In this document: one piece after another, positions 23,155-39,553 of the stretch
How positions within the stretch are numbered: the first letter of the stretch is position 1
Layout: each line of letters opens with the position of its first letter
NCBI GenBank assembly: GCA_024103425.1
Contig: JAGFIS010000039.1
Coordinates: 62,001 to 126,000 of the forward strand
Direction: 5' to 3'
From: Chitinophagaceae bacterium
GTDB taxonomy: Bacteria; Bacteroidota; Bacteroidia; Chitinophagales; Chitinophagaceae
Length of the DNA stretch: 64,000 nucleotides
Made by a program: the position numbers and the translations under genes
Notes under the pieces: generated by a model
Seen by the model: the letters and a program-made list of their open reading frames with translations, nothing else
The model's database searches: none
Told to the model about the DNA's origin: nothing

Positions 23155-24381
23155 ATGCGATTGATTTTTACACTATTTGCCATTTTACTGTGTGGAATTG
23201 CGGGTGCACAGCCTTTCGGTCAAAGCCAGAATAACTGGAATGGTATTTCAGGCGACAGGACGGGTCAGCACCAGAATACCCCTGCACACAAGAGGGATAC
23301 CTTACCCGGTGAAGTGATTGTCGTGCCCGTTGTTGTTCATGTTTTATACAATACATCAGATCAAAATATTTCAGATCAGCGCATTATAGATCAGATTAAT
23401 TCATTGAACCGCGATTACAGAAGGCGCAATGCCGATACTGTAAACACGCCGGCTGCTTTCAGAGACCGTGCAGCAGATGTACAGATAGTTTTTGCCCTGG
23501 CTCAGAGAGATCCACATGGAAATAAAACAACAGGAATCATCCGGAAATATACCAAGACAAAGATGTTCATGCCCGATGATGAAATGAAGTTTTCTGCAAA
23601 AGGTGGGGATGATGCATGGGATGCGACTAAGTATCTGAATATCTGGGTTTGTAACATTTTTGGCCGTTTACTGGGGTACACCCCCATGCCGGGCGGTGAT
23701 CCAAAGACTGACGGAGTCGTGATTCAGTATTCTGTGTTCGGACACGGCAATGGTCTTAGCGGTCCATTTAATTTGGGACGTACGCTGACACATGAAGTAG
23801 GCCACTGGCTGGGCCTCAAACATATCTGGGGAGATTCTGAATGTGGAGATGACGGGATAGATGATACTCCACGCCAGCAGTCAGCCAATACAGGGCATAA
23901 TGTGTTTCCTAAAATATCTGCTTGTTCCGAGGATGCAAATGGTGATATGTTTATGAATTTCATGGACTTTTCTGATGATGCTGATATGAATATGTTTACC
24001 ATCGGGCAGAAGAAAGCCATGCGTGCACAGTTTGCATTGGGTGGCGACAGAAATTCATTGCTTGTATCAGATGCCCTTAACATCAACGGTATAGAGGAAG
24101 CACTGCAGGATAAAGACTGGGAAGAGGTTGTCCGTCTATATCCGAATCCGACTGTGGATTACGTAATTGTTGAAGGCAGAAGCCTCAACGATATCAATGG
24201 TAAGTACCTGAAGCTTTACGATATGCAGGGCAAACTGATTCTGAGTAAACGTATTCAGGACGAAAGAACCAGGATTGATATGAACGGGCTGCCGGGTGGA
24301 TTATATATGCTCTCTCTTGAAGATATGGGTGAACGTAAGATGTTTAAGATTGTTAAGACTGCTTCGGGCTTTTCGCACTAA
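23155..24381 (+). CDS. Secreted M43 (cytophagalysin-type) metalloprotease with T9SS sorting domain
   Basis: 408 residues. After a signal peptide (ending GAQ) comes a prodomain-like stretch with VVVHVLYN. The catalytic zinc motif is HEVGHWLGLKH near residue 213, followed by the M43 features GDSECGDDGIDDTP and the Met-turn MNFMDFSDD. Residues about 325-408 form a type A T9SS sorting domain (RLYPNPTVDYVIVEG, LPGGLYMLSL). It is therefore exported to the surface or medium and should degrade proteins. Its end overlaps the convergent next gene by 29 bases. An ATTGAT-A-ATCAAT palindrome at 23083-23095 lies about 60 bp before the start. Confidence 0.93.
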   Translation: MRLIFTLFAILLCGIAGAQPFGQSQNNWNGISGDRTGQHQNTPAHKRDTLPGEVIVVPVVVHVLYNTSDQNISDQRIIDQINSLNRDYRRRNADTVNTPAAFRDRAADVQIVFALAQRDPHGNKTTGIIRKYTKTKMFMPDDEMKFSAKGGDDAWDATKYLNIWVCNIFGRLLGYTPMPGGDPKTDGVVIQYSVFGHGNGLSGPFNLGRTLTHEVGHWLGLKHIWGDSECGDDGIDDTPRQQSANTGHNVFPKISACSEDANGDMFMNFMDFSDDADMNMFTIGQKKAMRAQFALGGDRNSLLVSDALNINGIEEALQDKDWEEVVRLYPNPTVDYVIVEGRSLNDINGKYLKLYDMQGKLILSKRIQDERTRIDMNGLPGGLYMLSLEDMGERKMFKIVKTASGFSH

Positions 24382-25933
24382 CCTTATCGAAACGTTTCTT
24401 TTCAATGTATTTCTTGCGGATAATGCCTGCAACGGGTTTATTGTAGATTTTGCTTTCCAGCCATGAAATAATATCGAGATAGGCAAAGGCCCGCGTTTCA
24501 AACTTTCCCGATTCCATAGTTTTCAGTTCGTCAAGTAAGCGTACAAACTCGGGCTTAATTTCCCGTTTTGAAATGTGGAATGACCTGCGCAAAAATCCAA
24601 ACATGGCTTCCTCAACCTTGGAGAGGTTTTCCATCTTGGCCATGAAGCGGTAAACTGATTTTATCAGGTACTCCATCAGCGAAAAGTTATCTAATTCGTA
24701 GTGAGCGATCAGGTGTAACAGTCGCGCATAACATTGCAAGTCGTTTCTCAGGTTAACTTTCCAGTTGATGATTTTATTGAGATAGTCTATTGCTTTACCG
24801 TAGTTACCGGCCCCGAAATAGAGGGAAGCTATTTTATAGTAGAAAACTAATGTGCGGTGCTTATCGAGGATGAGTTCGTACTTGTCTAACTGCTCTACTA
24901 TTTCCGGAACTAATTTGATGCCTTCCTCAAAGCTGCCTTCGAGGAAGTGCTTGTTGATGCGTGCTGTATAGAGATAAACGAATGTCTGGATACGGGTATT
25001 TTCATCGCGGTTAGCTTCAGGTGCCAGGGCGAATTTTTCAAATTCTTCCAGCGATTTTTTAAATCCCTCAAAATTCCTCAGGTTGAAGTGTGCATTCAGA
25101 AGATTGTGCATTCCCTTCAAATAGTTTTCTGTTTCAATACACAACATCTCAGGATATTCTGCGAATACTTCTGTCCATTTTTTGCAATACCGGTAATACA
25201 TCAGAAAATCCTGCCTGATGTAAGCGTACCAGCAATGCGCCTGGAAATAGTAGAGTTTTTCGTAGAAGCCCTTAGGATGCCGCAGATCTGCCGTGAGGTT
25301 ATCTTTGAAAAAGGAGGAAATCTCTTTTTCAGCTTTGGCGTTGCTGGCTATTCCGTTTTTTATATACCATTCGTAAAGTTGGAGCACCAGACTGCTGAGC
25401 CGTGCTTGCCTGTTATAATGGCTGATTGCATCCTCTACTTCTGATGCAAGCACTGTAGCACGGTCTGTCGAGCTGCGGGTGATGTGCAGATATTCTATCC
25501 TTTTCTCTTCTTCCAGTACGGTAATCAGCAATGGAATTTGGTGAGTAGTTTTTGCCGCATCTTTTATCCTGTCGAGGATACGCAGGCTTTGGTGGAACAG
25601 GCCTTTTTCATAAAGCGTCCTGGCGAATTCCAATTGCTCGTAAAACTGAAATTCATTTGTTGTACTGTTCCTCAACAGCATGAGGCTGATGAGAATCTGG
25701 CGGTACAGATGAGCCTTCAGGTTGGGTAATTGTTGCTTCTTTATCGAGGGATTTTTTCCCAGGATGGCGTCTTCATCATAGCTGTTCTGTTTGTCAATGG
25801 CATCAAAAAGCGTAATAATCTTTAGATCCCCTTTTGAGGAATTCCGCTTGATATACAGCTTAAAGTTCCTCTTTTCCGACTTTTCGAGCGAGTGGATGAG
25901 TTGGAAGAGGGCGTCTGTCGATTTGTTGGGCAT
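24353..25933 (-). CDS. Conserved Bacteroidetes protein of unknown function, helical repeats
   Basis: 526 residues, with no signal peptide or membrane segment. The whole chain reads as alpha-helical with TPR-like spacing (pairs such as EKGLFHQSLRILDRIKDA, YFGAGNYGKAIDYLNKII). It begins with a conserved-looking block on Ser-Glu-Lys-Arg-Asn (HSLEKSEKRNFKLYIKR) and ends in a basic tail. I do not recognise a catalytic motif; a protein-protein scaffold in the cytosol is the most that can be inferred. It is divergent from leuA with 164 bp between starts and shares 29 antiparallel bases with the M43 protease gene. Confidence 0.8.
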   Translation of the reverse strand: MPNKSTDALFQLIHSLEKSEKRNFKLYIKRNSSKGDLKIITLFDAIDKQNSYDEDAILGKNPSIKKQQLPNLKAHLYRQILISLMLLRNSTTNEFQFYEQLEFARTLYEKGLFHQSLRILDRIKDAAKTTHQIPLLITVLEEEKRIEYLHITRSSTDRATVLASEVEDAISHYNRQARLSSLVLQLYEWYIKNGIASNAKAEKEISSFFKDNLTADLRHPKGFYEKLYYFQAHCWYAYIRQDFLMYYRYCKKWTEVFAEYPEMLCIETENYLKGMHNLLNAHFNLRNFEGFKKSLEEFEKFALAPEANRDENTRIQTFVYLYTARINKHFLEGSFEEGIKLVPEIVEQLDKYELILDKHRTLVFYYKIASLYFGAGNYGKAIDYLNKIINWKVNLRNDLQCYARLLHLIAHYELDNFSLMEYLIKSVYRFMAKMENLSKVEEAMFGFLRRSFHISKREIKPEFVRLLDELKTMESGKFETRAFAYLDIISWLESKIYNKPVAGIIRKKYIEKKRFDKVSAKSPKQS

Positions 25934-26097
25934 CGTAATTTAATTCGCTAAAATACCAGTGTTTTTGCGGGTTTCAGAGGATATTGAACGGTTTTAACAG
26001 TGTAATATCTGTCAAATATGATTCCGTTTCCCGGAATGCTAAAATTAATTTCGAAGATAATTCAATCGACTCTTTATCCTTTAATAAAAATGAACGC

Positions 26098-29319: not shown

Positions 29320-30804
29320 ATGTTGTTAGAAATATCCGGACTGTCATATAAAGAATCAGGAGCCTATGTGCTGAAGGATATTTCTTTTGCTATCCGGAAA
29401 GGGGAGTGTTGGGTAATTACCGGTCCCTCGGGAAGCGGAAAATCGACTTTGCTTCGCTGCATTCAACATCACAAGACCTTTGATGGATATATCCGGTTTA
29501 ATGATGGTGCAAAAGATCCGGTTGTAAAACTTATTACTCATCAGCACGGATTTAAGAATCTGTCAGGAATCAACAATTTCTATTACCAGCAGCGATTCAA
29601 TGCAACCGAATCATCAGACTCAAAAACAGTTTCTGAAGACTTGATAGAAACCATGACCGATCCAGATGCTTTTAAGTATCTCCATATGCTTGAAATCGGT
29701 CACCTGGCAGATACTCCATTGCTCCACCTCAGTAATGGTGAACACAAGCGTTACCAACTGGCAAAAGCATTAGGTCAGAAAGCAGAATGGTTGCTTTTAG
29801 ACAGTGCCTTCACAGGGCTGGATACACATGCGAGAAAAATGTTAGAGAAGATCCTGTCGGAATTAATGCAGAAAGGAATTCATTTGATTCTGGTAGAAAG
29901 AGACTATCTGCCTGACTTTGTAACGCATGTCTGTGAACTCGATCGGGGAATTATGACAGGTGTGTTTACTCGGGAACAATTTTTAAATCAGAGGCGTAAG
30001 AAGCAATCTGTTGCAGAGACAATTGATCTCTCTAAATTGTCTGTTACCGAAACAGTCAATTTTGAATATGCTGTGCGCATGAGGAATGTAACAGTGAAAT
30101 ATGACGACAGGATAATTCTTGAAAATATTTCATGGGATGTAAAGAGAGGAGAGAAGTGGTGCCTTACCGGTCCGAACGGATCGGGCAAGTCGACATTATT
30201 AAGCCTGATTACAGCAGACAACCCTCAGGCTTTTGCGAATGAAATTTATCTGTTTGACAAAAGAAAGGGTAGTGGCGAGTCTATCTGGGAAATCAAAAAA
30301 CTGATAGGGTTTGTTTCACCCGAGTTACATCAGTTTTTTGATAAATCCCAGTCATGTTTTAATGTGGTTGCATCCGGGTTGTTCGATACTATTGGTTTAT
30401 TCCGCAAACTGACGGATGAGCAAAAAAAACTGACCGAAACGTGCTTGGAACTGTTTGGAATCAGCGCGTGGGCAACAAAATCGTTTGGGACGCTGTCGCA
30501 TGGAATGCAGCGTTGGGGGCTGTTAGCCCGTGCAGTGGTCAAGAACCCGGCTTTGTTAATTCTCGATGAACCCTGCCAGGGCCTGGACGATGACTTTAGG
30601 GCTAAATCTATGGGATTCATATCACAGGTGTGCAACAATGCTGATCGGACACTGATTTGTGTTACGCATCTGGATGATGAAATTCCTGCTGGATTGACAG
30701 GAAGAATGTTTTTAGAAAAAGGAAAAATAAAAGATATCATTCAATATGGAAAAGAAGATAACAGTCATTCCCGGAGATGGGATCGGACCGGAAGTTACGC
30801 GTGA
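29320..30804 (+). CDS. ModF-like protein with two ABC ATPase domains, inside the leu operon
   Basis: 494 residues, no membrane segments. Domain 1 has Walker A GPSGSGKST and signature LSNGE, but the Walker B region reads LLLDSAFTGLD (Ser in place of the catalytic Glu) and the H-loop position reads LVERDY, so its site looks degenerate. Domain 2 has Walker A GPNGSGKST, signature LSHGM, a normal LLILDEPCQGLD and VTHLDDE. The architecture matches ModF, named as a molybdate transport ATPase but without a shown transport role. No permease is nearby. Its last 59 bases overlap leuB in another frame, so its C-terminal tail (about 19 residues) is encoded by the start of leuB and translation is probably coupled. 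A function in leucine metabolism cannot be inferred. Confidence 0.88.
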   Translation: MLLEISGLSYKESGAYVLKDISFAIRKGECWVITGPSGSGKSTLLRCIQHHKTFDGYIRFNDGAKDPVVKLITHQHGFKNLSGINNFYYQQRFNATESSDSKTVSEDLIETMTDPDAFKYLHMLEIGHLADTPLLHLSNGEHKRYQLAKALGQKAEWLLLDSAFTGLDTHARKMLEKILSELMQKGIHLILVERDYLPDFVTHVCELDRGIMTGVFTREQFLNQRRKKQSVAETIDLSKLSVTETVNFEYAVRMRNVTVKYDDRIILENISWDVKRGEKWCLTGPNGSGKSTLLSLITADNPQAFANEIYLFDKRKGSGESIWEIKKLIGFVSPELHQFFDKSQSCFNVVASGLFDTIGLFRKLTDEQKKLTETCLELFGISAWATKSFGTLSHGMQRWGLLARAVVKNPALLILDEPCQGLDDDFRAKSMGFISQVCNNADRTLICVTHLDDEIPAGLTGRMFLEKGKIKDIIQYGKEDNSHSRRWDRTGSYA

Positions 30805-31991: not shown

Positions 31992-32021
31992 TTTGTTTTT
32001 TGAACAACAATTGTATGTTTG
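31992..32021 (+). promoter_or_regulatory. Bacteroidetes-type promoter for the ilv leader transcript
   Basis: TTTG at 31992-31995 and TATGTTTG at 32014-32021 match the phylum's -33 and -7 elements (TTTG and TAnnTTTG), with an 18-base spacer. The expected transcription start is near 32028, just before the leader peptide. Confidence 0.65.
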
Positions 32022-32073
32022 CTTCTCAATTCAAACCTGAATCGTGAACAGAGGCAGACAAATAATTAACGTA

Positions 32074-32142
32074 ATGAATGTGGTAGCTATGATTATTATA
32101 GCTATTGTCATTATTATGCCCGACACGTATGCAGGAGGATAA
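32074..32142 (+). CDS. Ile/Val-rich leader peptide of the ilv attenuator
   Basis: 22 codons from ATG 32074 to TAA 32140-32142. Residues 3-14 are VVAMIIIAIVII: nine of twelve are Ile or Val, and the peptide has no Leu codon. An in-frame GTG at 32044 would add ten residues (with two Ile and one more internal Val) and cannot be excluded; neither start has a strong ribosome site, which is normal in this phylum. The last codons, Ala-Gly-Gly, are written by the bases that form the antiterminator. The composition resembles the ilv leader peptides of enterobacteria in kind, not in sequence. Its role would be to make a translating ribosome stall when charged Ile or Val tRNA is short. Confidence 0.8.
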   Translation: MNVVAMIIIAIVIIMPDTYAGG

Positions 32143-32180
32143 TTGAAACAATGAAAATATTTGTGAACCCGCCTCCTGCA
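32130..32180 (+). promoter_or_regulatory. Antiterminator pairing of the ilv attenuator
   Basis: TGCAGGAGG (32130-32138, end of the leader peptide) is an exact 9-bp complement of CCTCCTGCA (32172-32180, the 5' arm and loop of the terminator). A ribosome stalled on the Ile run (32092-32115) leaves the first strand free, so this pairing forms and blocks the terminator. A ribosome that reaches the stop at 32140 covers it, so the terminator forms. Confidence 0.75.
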
Positions 32181-32194
32181 GAGGCGGGTTTTTT
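32166..32194 (+). terminator. Attenuator terminator before ilvE
   Basis: Perfect 10-bp stem AACCCGCCTC / GAGGCGGGTT with a 5-base loop (CTGCA) followed by six T, 20 bases before the ilvE ATG. It is the strongest hairpin in the gap and sits upstream of a gene rather than after one. Confidence 0.88.
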
Positions 32195-32214
32195 ATTGGA
32201 AAGAAGAAAAAATT

Positions 32215-33141
32215 ATGGCGAATTATTTTGATGAAAACACGTTTGTTTACCGCGACGGTGAGTATCTGAAAGCTGCCGATGCGCTGACTCATTTATACGG
32301 TCAGACATTGCATTATGGTTACGGAGCTTTTGAAGGAATAAGGGCTTATGAAACGGTAACTGGAGCAACTAAAATTTTTAAAGCGAAGGAACACTTCGAT
32401 CGTTTAGAGCGTTCGGCAAAGCTGCTCAACCTGCCGTACCACTGGACAACTGGCGAACTGATTGAAGCCAGCTATGAGGTGCTGAAGCGCAACAATCACA
32501 AGGCGGCTTATGTACGTCCGCTGGTTTACGCTCCGGCCAATATGGGCTTCAATCCGAATGAGAAATCACATATTGTTATTGAGACCTGGCCGATGCAGCC
32601 ATTCCTGGGAGAGAAGTTACTGTCGGTTTTCATTTCGTCTTATCAGCGACCTAATCCGAAAGGATTTAAAATCGAAGCAAAAGCTTGCGGTCATTATGTA
32701 AACTCTATTCTCGCCAGTCATGAAGCTAAGGCTAACGGATATGATGAGGCACTGCTTTTTGACATGGACGGATATGTGGCTGAAGCACCGGGCGCCAACA
32801 TCTTTATGGAAAAAGACGGCAAGCTGTTTACTCCGGCTTTAGGAAATATCCTGCCGGGTATTACCAGGGCAACTGTTATTGAACTGGCAAACGTGCTGGG
32901 GATAAGTGTGGAAGAAAAGCAAATAACCCCCGAAGAGCTTCTTGCAGCAGATAGCGCCTTTTTCTGCGGAACAGCAGCGGAGGTAATCGGTATCGCATCA
33001 ATCAACAAAAAAGATTTCCCGAAACCATGGAGCGACAGTATAGGTGCACGCATTCAGGCGGCTTATCACGATCTGGTGAGAGAAGACTTTTCAGACAGAA
33101 AATATTCAGCAAAAGAAAAATTAGAAACATCAAATGGGTGA
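32215..33141 (+). CDS. ilvE: Branched-chain amino acid aminotransferase (class IV)
   Basis: Last step of Leu, Ile and Val synthesis. 308 residues. [16 protein letters not shown] opens the fold, the PLP lysine is in [21 protein letters not shown], and [19 protein letters not shown] is the family block. GGAAAGAAG before the ATG may act as ribosome site. It is the first gene behind the attenuator and overlaps ilvD by 8 bases. Confidence 0.96.
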
Positions 33142-38278: not shown

Positions 38279-39553
38279 ATGTTGCAACAAGAATCAGATA
38301 CTACTACAGTTACAGAGCTGCAATCCTTCGATTTCGGAGGAGCAACAGAAAGATTACGGGGTGTTGTGTTAAAGACTCCTCTTCAGTACAACACTAACCT
38401 GTCGAAGAAGTACGGTGCCAATATCTACCTCAAAAGAGAAGATATGCAGGTAGTGCGCTCCTACAAACTGCGGGGCGCGTACAACAAGATGAAAACGCTT
38501 ACTCCTGAGCAGATGAAGCGTGGTGTTGTTTGTGCAAGTGCAGGAAACCATGCACAGGGGTTTGCCTACAGTTGCCGGTTACTCAAAATCAAGGGTGTCA
38601 TCTTTATGCCGGTAATTACTCCGGGCCAGAAGATCAGTCATACCAAGATGTTTGGCGAAGATTATGTAGAGGTAAGGCTCGTGGGCGACACCTATGATGC
38701 ATGTGCTGCAGCAGCTAAGGAACATCAGCAGCAAACAGGCATGACTTTCATCCCTGCTTTTGATGATTTAAAGATTATTGAAGGCCAGGCAACGGTAGGT
38801 GTAGAGATTTTGAAAGAACTTTCTGATGTAGATTATCTGTTTATTCCGGTTGGCGGCGGCGGACTCGCATCAGGAACAGGAACCTACTTTAAGCAGTTCT
38901 CGCCCAGGACTAAAGTAATTGGAGTAGAGCCTGAGGGTGCACCGAGCTTATATAAAGCATTTGAAGCAGGCGGGCCCGTAACTCTAAGCACTATTGACAC
39001 TTTTGTTGACGGTGCCAGCGTAAAACGCACCGGCGATATTACCTACAGGATTTGCAGAGAGGTTTTAGCCGATCTGAAACTCATTCCTGAGGGTAAGGTA
39101 TGCTCCACTTTGCTGCATTTATATAATGAGGAAGGTATCATTGCAGAGCCTGCAGGAACGCTTTCCGTTGCTGCATTGGACGATTTTGCAGAAGAGATTA
39201 AAGGAAAAAATGTGGTCTGCATTATCAGCGGAGGAAATAACGATATCAGTCGTACAGCCGAAATGCAGGAAAGAGCATTGGTTTATGAAGGCATGAAGCA
39301 CTACTTCCTCATCAACTTCGCCCAGCGTCCGGGTGCATTGAAAGAGTTTGTCAATAACGTACTTTCAGAGAGTGATGACATCACCCTGTTTGAATATGTC
39401 AAGAAGATTAACCGCGAATCCGGTCCTGCCCTGGTAGGCATTGAGCAAAAACACCGGGCAGATTATCAGTTGTTGATAAGCAGGATGAAGGAGTTCAATG
39501 TTGACTTCAAAGAATTAAACGGTGTGGAAAAGGAGTTTAAGTTTCTTGTTTGA
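38279..39553 (+). CDS. ilvA: Threonine dehydratase (biosynthetic)
   Basis: Deaminates threonine to 2-oxobutyrate, the isoleucine-specific entry. 424 residues. The PLP lysine is in VVRSYKLRGAYNKM, with SAGNHAQGFA and the phosphate loop GGGGLASGTG. A single ACT-like regulatory domain lies at about 335-424 (HYFLINFAQRPGALKEFV), shorter than the double domain of E. coli IlvA; isoleucine feedback is likely but its strength cannot be judged. It is the last gene of the ilv operon. Confidence 0.94.
   Translation: MLQQESDTTTVTELQSFDFGGATERLRGVVLKTPLQYNTNLSKKYGANIYLKREDMQVVRSYKLRGAYNKMKTLTPEQMKRGVVCASAGNHAQGFAYSCRLLKIKGVIFMPVITPGQKISHTKMFGEDYVEVRLVGDTYDACAAAAKEHQQQTGMTFIPAFDDLKIIEGQATVGVEILKELSDVDYLFIPVGGGGLASGTGTYFKQFSPRTKVIGVEPEGAPSLYKAFEAGGPVTLSTIDTFVDGASVKRTGDITYRICREVLADLKLIPEGKVCSTLLHLYNEEGIIAEPAGTLSVAALDDFAEEIKGKNVVCIISGGNNDISRTAEMQERALVYEGMKHYFLINFAQRPGALKEFVNNVLSESDDITLFEYVKKINRESGPALVGIEQKHRADYQLLISRMKEFNVDFKELNGVEKEFKFLV

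Follow-up and report, generated by a model that had tools for sequence, protein, structure and literature searches.

What governs the entry of RNA polymerase into ilvE in this Chitinophagaceae genome? In the window, by which we mean the whole 64,000-nucleotide stretch of DNA that was analysed, ilvE is the first gene of an ilvE-ilvD-ilvB-ilvN-ilvC-ilvA operon extending to position 39553 (names of operon genes other than ilvE were assigned by sequence recognition), and it is preceded by a promoter, a short Ile/Val-rich open reading frame (ORF) and an intrinsic terminator (Table 1). We conclude that this element is very probably a ribosome-mediated transcription attenuator of the ilvEDBNCA operon. 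Its predicted architecture is that of a classic attenuator, in a phylum in which the mechanism has been little described.

Layout of the leuB–ilvE interval

Table 1 Features of the ilvE leader region, in window coordinates
Feature	Position	Strand	Details
Bacteroidota-type promoter	31992..32021	+	-33 TTTG 31992-31995, 18 nt, -7 TATGTTTG 32014-32021; from sequence
Leader peptide gene (probable start)	32044..32142	+	GTG start, 32 codons, (V/M)NRGRQIINVMNVVAMIIIAIVIIMPDTYAGG, stop TAA 32140-32142
22-codon leader version MNVVAMIIIAIVIIMPDTYAGG	32074..32142	+	Internal ATG, same frame; version in the preliminary description
Control codons (Ile/Val run)	32092..32115	+	ATT ATT ATA GCT ATT GTC ATT ATT
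Antiterminator 5′ strand TGCAGGAGG	32130..32138	+	Inside last leader codons; perfect 9 bp with 32172-32180
Terminator hairpin	32166..32190	+	AACCCGCCTC (32166-32175)-CTGCA-GAGGCGGGTT (32181-32190), 10 bp
U tract of intrinsic terminator	32189..32194	+	T6; kept in relatives
ilvE, branched-chain aminotransferase (Aminotran_4)	32215..33141	+	PF01063 match, 194.5 bits

A preliminary description of this interval had listed the TTTG and TATGTTTG promoter elements, nine Ile/Val among residues 3–14 of a 22-codon ORF, a perfect 9-bp pairing between the last leader codons and the terminator region, and a perfect 10-bp terminator stem with six T. Direct reading of the sequence found all of these at the positions given for them. 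The 3′ strand of the antiterminator (CCTCCTGCA, 32172–32180) consists of the 5′ arm and loop of the terminator. The 187-nt transcript leader was predicted to fold at −52 kcal/mol, versus −33.4 ± 3.7 kcal/mol for dinucleotide shuffles (z = −5.0), and the antiterminator score of the window was equalled by 0 of 200 shuffles of the leader end.

The extent of the leader required revision. The 22-codon ORF running from ATG 32074 to TAA 32142 is present as described, but comparison with relatives indicates that translation probably starts at GTG 32044, giving a leader of 32 codons with 12 Ile/Val. This assignment is based on where relatives' starts align, on spacing from the −7 box and on leader lengths in the family. 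A GTG aligned with GTG 32044 is found in the close relatives L135 and L136 (ilvE 80–81% identical), and in L008 and L009, two loci of the same genus, the aligned position is occupied by an ATG. GTG 32044 lies 22 nt from the −7 box and ATG 32074 lies 52 nt from it, the starts of relatives usually being about 16–20 nt away, and leaders are 30–34 codons long in 59 of 66 relatives. The revised start leaves the control region and both pairings unchanged.

Conservation of the leader and of both pairings

The reality of the element is settled by its conservation across relatives. Our family set comprised the upstream regions of 70 Chitinophagaceae ilvE genes, the window's own included, of which 66 carried an Ile/Val leader followed by a GC-rich hairpin and a T run (the leader was absent at L050, L055, L060 and L068) and 63 passed a strict automatic detector. 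On named relatives, the detector found the arrangement before ilvE in 59 of 80, versus 0 of 800 shuffles. Almost every relative retains AGTTCTTTG...TAtattTG/CG upstream of its leader, a short distance from the leader start. Ile, Val and Leu account for 8–11 residues per 12 in relatives; the second codon position of the Ile/Val tract is nearly invariant and the third usually the most variable, a pattern that fits the expectation for a translated Ile/Val tract.

Comparison of ilvE upstream regions across Chitinophagaceae, as the preliminary description had proposed, revealed that both pairings are conserved with compensatory changes. In an alignment of 58 sequences, the terminator stem was 98.7% paired and seven of its nine pairs had double-sided changes; the covariation (40 cells) was reached by 0 of 500 shuffles. 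The antiterminator, in family loci and named relatives alike, is conserved through register shifts and rewriting of its sequence. The window shares the form GCAGGAGG:CCTCCTGC with its nearest relatives; most Chitinophagaceae have GGAGGTGG:CCGCCTCC, and L017 has CAGAGGAGC:GCTTCTCTG. A further rewritten version among relatives is TGAGAAAG:CTTTCTCA, and in Gelidibacter and Tenacibaculum, which belong to other families, the antiterminator is TTGATACAG:CTGTATCAA, with the terminator altered to match. A few family antiterminators are short (4 bp in L037, for example). Peptide composition, both pairings and the position before ilv were all conserved, the opposite of the loss among ilvE-bearing relatives that the preliminary description had named as evidence against its reading. 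What comparison across relatives establishes is the presence and conservation of the predicted leader, terminator and antiterminator, of their spacing and of their association with the operon.

In the related genomes L034 and L035, the leader end CCGGCGGGAAGC pairs with CCCGCC rather than through the usual GGAGG with CCTCC; this predicted antiterminator is a switch of both register and sequence.

An Ile/Val-rich ORF might also encode a membrane microprotein, with the hairpin merely ending the upstream leu transcript or constitutively lowering read-through, and both the hydrophobicity of the peptides and the location of an intrinsic terminator between leuB and ilvE accord with this idea. It leaves unexplained, however, why in almost every relative the end of the ORF can pair with the terminator and varies in step with it. 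Outside the Ile/Val tract, peptide lengths and ends vary freely between families (MNQNIIIISVIIINSS versus MWVNKDNNKINHIVAQLNWAITLVVVVVVIISHQYGG), and the conserved Gly-Gly end is the product of the GGAGG codons. The promoter, moreover, is placed after leuB and immediately in front of the ORF, and Trp and Phe/Tyr versions of the leader precede trpE and pheA. These features make a microprotein gene very improbable, and we retain attenuation as the reading of this ORF.

A covariance model of the element matched 113 of the 194 genomes from the family and 53 of the 395 from the phylum; matches outside the family were individually weak (E about 1e-3 to 1e-8), and those that were inspected had leaders and terminators of the expected kind. 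Where the operon lacks ilvE, the element precedes ilvD (L076, L080, L111 and others), and in other families it was found before ilvE, ilvD, ilvA or the gene for the acetolactate synthase small subunit. Two matches in the window's own genome, L132 and L134, look like chance.

At L073 (G005:C1:2567732-2567851, minus strand), the ilv leader and its terminator are present as a strong copy with no ilv gene within 1.5 kb. By eye, the gene downstream of it resembles the minus-strand protein encoded at 24353–25933 of the window, and L073 may be an attenuator that became detached after rearrangement.

Leaders before other amino acid operons

The other amino acid operons of the window's own genome were surveyed gene by gene. 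A Phe/Tyr leader, MNKTKSYNWFYFSYFFSFYYRNSRDRLVVM, precedes pheA, encoding prephenate dehydratase (L133 / L221; G000:C5:87347-87465, minus strand), and a Trp leader with a WWW run, MKIQNTYNSWWWQTMSFIVP, precedes trpE (L215 / L251; G000:C10, upstream of 96226). Each is accompanied by a terminator and an antiterminator, and each is conserved in the family, the pheA leader at 27 of 30 loci and the Trp-rich trpE leader at 25 of 30 (0 of 300 shuffles in both cases). Leader composition tracks the downstream pathway: Ile/Val before ilvE, Phe/Tyr before pheA, Trp before trpE and none before thrA. The Ile/Val detector found nothing at 90 loci before pheA, trpE and thrA, and the Phe/Tyr detector had no match before ilvE, trpE or thrA. 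The Trp detector matched 8 of 70 ilvE loci, probably because GTGGTGG yields TGG TGG when read in a different frame.

A Thr-rich short ORF, MNTNGFISFGYNRVLNTITTTGITRKGM, preceded by a TAGATTTG box, lies before the aspartokinase gene (thrA) in the same genome (L217; G000:C5, upstream of 24696). It has no clear terminator, and a terminator-type detector found none before thrA at 30 family loci. Other Bacteroidota families have a His-rich leader, MNLLQLHHHRHHHTCSQARW, before hisG (L085), a gene absent from the window's own genome, and Thr/Ile leaders, MTINNTTIITIITTG..., before an aspartokinase gene (L097, L101 and L102). Upstream of leuA (window 25934–26097), no Leu-rich short ORF with a terminator after it was seen by eye.

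The correspondence between leaders and pathways also bears on whether the ORF is incidental to a metabolite- or tRNA-binding RNA, such as a T-box or a branched-chain amino acid riboswitch, or to a protein-dependent antiterminator, mechanisms that share the architecture of terminator and antiterminator seen here. Such an RNA would not account for Trp, Phe/Tyr, His-rich and Thr/Ile-rich leaders before the matching pathways. An Rfam search returned nothing above gathering score, neither a T-box nor a riboswitch; the best match was Phe_leader at 26.7 bits against a gathering threshold of 55, and a permissive threshold yielded chance-level matches alone. Conservation is confined to the codon pattern and the two pairings, with no conserved structured aptamer. 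We regard a ligand- or protein-sensing RNA as scarcely credible here, and attenuation by a translating ribosome remains our interpretation.

Proposed mechanism and its relation to known attenuators

We infer leader translation, ribosome stalling, termination in vivo and a response to starvation from this layout. Transcription would begin near 32028, and a ribosome would initiate leader translation at GTG 32044. With ample Ile-tRNA and Val-tRNA, the ribosome would reach the stop at 32142 and cover 32130–32138, allowing the terminator at 32166–32190 to form and transcription to stop near 32194. A shortage of charged Ile-tRNA or Val-tRNA would instead stall the ribosome in the Ile/Val run, leaving 32130–32138 free to pair with 32172–32180, which would block the terminator and let polymerase enter ilvE.

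The geometry of the leaders is compatible with this sequence of events. The last Ile/Val codon lies 11–12 nt from the antiterminator start at 40 of 66 loci, and the antiterminator 5′ end lies mostly 10–22 nt upstream of the end of the stop codon across the 66. Given the ribosome footprint size of general knowledge, these spacings fit a ribosome that would leave the antiterminator strand free when at the control codons and cover it when at the stop. The predicted nascent fold includes the antiterminator at 64 of 66 loci (−17.5 kcal/mol in the window). In static folds, the window's antiterminated form was predicted at −18.0 kcal/mol versus −19.6 kcal/mol for the terminator, and the antiterminated form was the more stable at 22 of 66 loci. 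The terminator being usually slightly more stable in such folds, the model relies on the order of RNA synthesis, as known attenuators do.

Instead of relying on intrinsic termination, the leader could in principle act mainly through translation, by Rho-dependent termination, by control of translation or by coupling to ilvE; only 72 nt separate the leader stop from the ilvE start, and translation in Bacteroidota is Shine–Dalgarno-independent. Among relatives, however, the gene begins anywhere from about 3 to 172 nt after the U tract, and a fixed translational coupling is therefore not conserved, whereas the hairpin and U tract are. A primarily translational mode of action thus seems most unlikely, and we return to intrinsic termination set by the leading ribosome.

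We looked for a 1:2 protector hairpin between the 5′ untranslated region (UTR) and the antiterminator strand. None was clearly conserved, and support was weak: complementarity scored 14.6 for each leader's own 5′ UTR versus 13.0 for swapped ones, 24% of sequences reached p < 0.05, and the window itself has 4 bp (p about 0.3). Without a protector hairpin, on a three-segment reading, the default in the absence of translation would be read-through. It is conceivable, although we hold the idea tentatively and think it rather doubtful, that three-segment, Shine–Dalgarno-independent attenuation with this default and without a protector hairpin is a general system for amino acid operons in Bacteroidota (ilv, trp and phe, with his and thr in some lineages), possibly one that arose independently of proteobacterial attenuators.

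Ilv attenuation is familiar from the enterobacterial ilvGMEDA and ilvBN operons, with their leader peptides ilvL and ivbL. The element described here shares with them a leader rich in the amino acids that the pathway makes, a choice between antiterminator and terminator hairpins, a U tract and the control of ilv genes. It differs in having no clearly conserved protector hairpin and no Rfam match, in a window leader with Ile/Val and without Leu, in a Bacteroidota promoter with a leader start about 15–20 nt from the predicted transcript start, and in an antiterminator strand that lies within the last leader codons. Likewise, the trpE, pheA, hisG and aspartokinase leaders follow the logic of E. 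coli thrL, pheL, trpL and hisL but differ from them in sequence, flanking genes and promoters.

Outside the enterobacteria, a comparative study by Lopatovskaya and colleagues reportedly may include Bacteroidetes. That 2010 study, on attenuation across bacteria, is cited in two later papers (PMC4833913, PMC10272879). Until the Firmicutes case that they described, the leader-peptide systems known to Naville and Gautheret (2010) were confined to Proteobacteria and Actinobacteria (PMC2965389). The Corynebacterium ilvB-II motif, a reporter of which responds to rich versus minimal medium, resembles the present element in its upstream ORF rich in branched-chain amino acid codons and its terminator and antiterminator before ilv genes; it comes from another phylum, has the gene order ilvBNC, differs in both sequence and structure, and has experimental support (PMC10272879). 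Within Bacteroidota, B. thetaiotaomicron has been noted to carry short ORFs that resemble leader peptides (PMC7366714). The same mechanism was proposed for amino acid operons of Flavobacterium psychrophilum, of the same phylum and a different lineage within it, from structured 5′ regions supported by transcriptome data; the main text mentions neither ilv genes nor isoleucine and singles out no individual leader, and the passages covered contain no cross-species covariation (PMC9723704). None of the papers covered by a literature search linked Chitinophaga to leader peptides and attenuation.

The present comparison provides strong evidence that classic attenuation, previously mostly suggested, controls amino acid synthesis in Chitinophagaceae and in other Bacteroidota. 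It also adds numerous short leader genes, together with an RNA family that Rfam does not contain. The mechanism would need a leading ribosome that keeps pace with RNA polymerase in a phylum where ribosomes do not depend on Shine–Dalgarno pairing, and three defined switches in one genome make transcription–translation coupling in Bacteroidota directly testable.

Two smaller observations concern the surroundings of the leader. Perfect or near-perfect DNA inverted repeats of 10–12 bp flank the −7 box in the ilv leader promoters of L032, L020, L057 and L048 and differ in sequence from genome to genome (for example, TTGAAGGATGT...ACATCCTTCAA in L032). They may represent a possible operator or chance; only 12% of 65 loci reach p < 0.05, the repeats lack significance across the whole set of loci, and we make no claim of an operator. 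In the leu cluster of the window, a gene encoding a 494-amino-acid protein in which two ABC ATPase domains were recognized by eye (29320–30804) lies between leuD and leuB.
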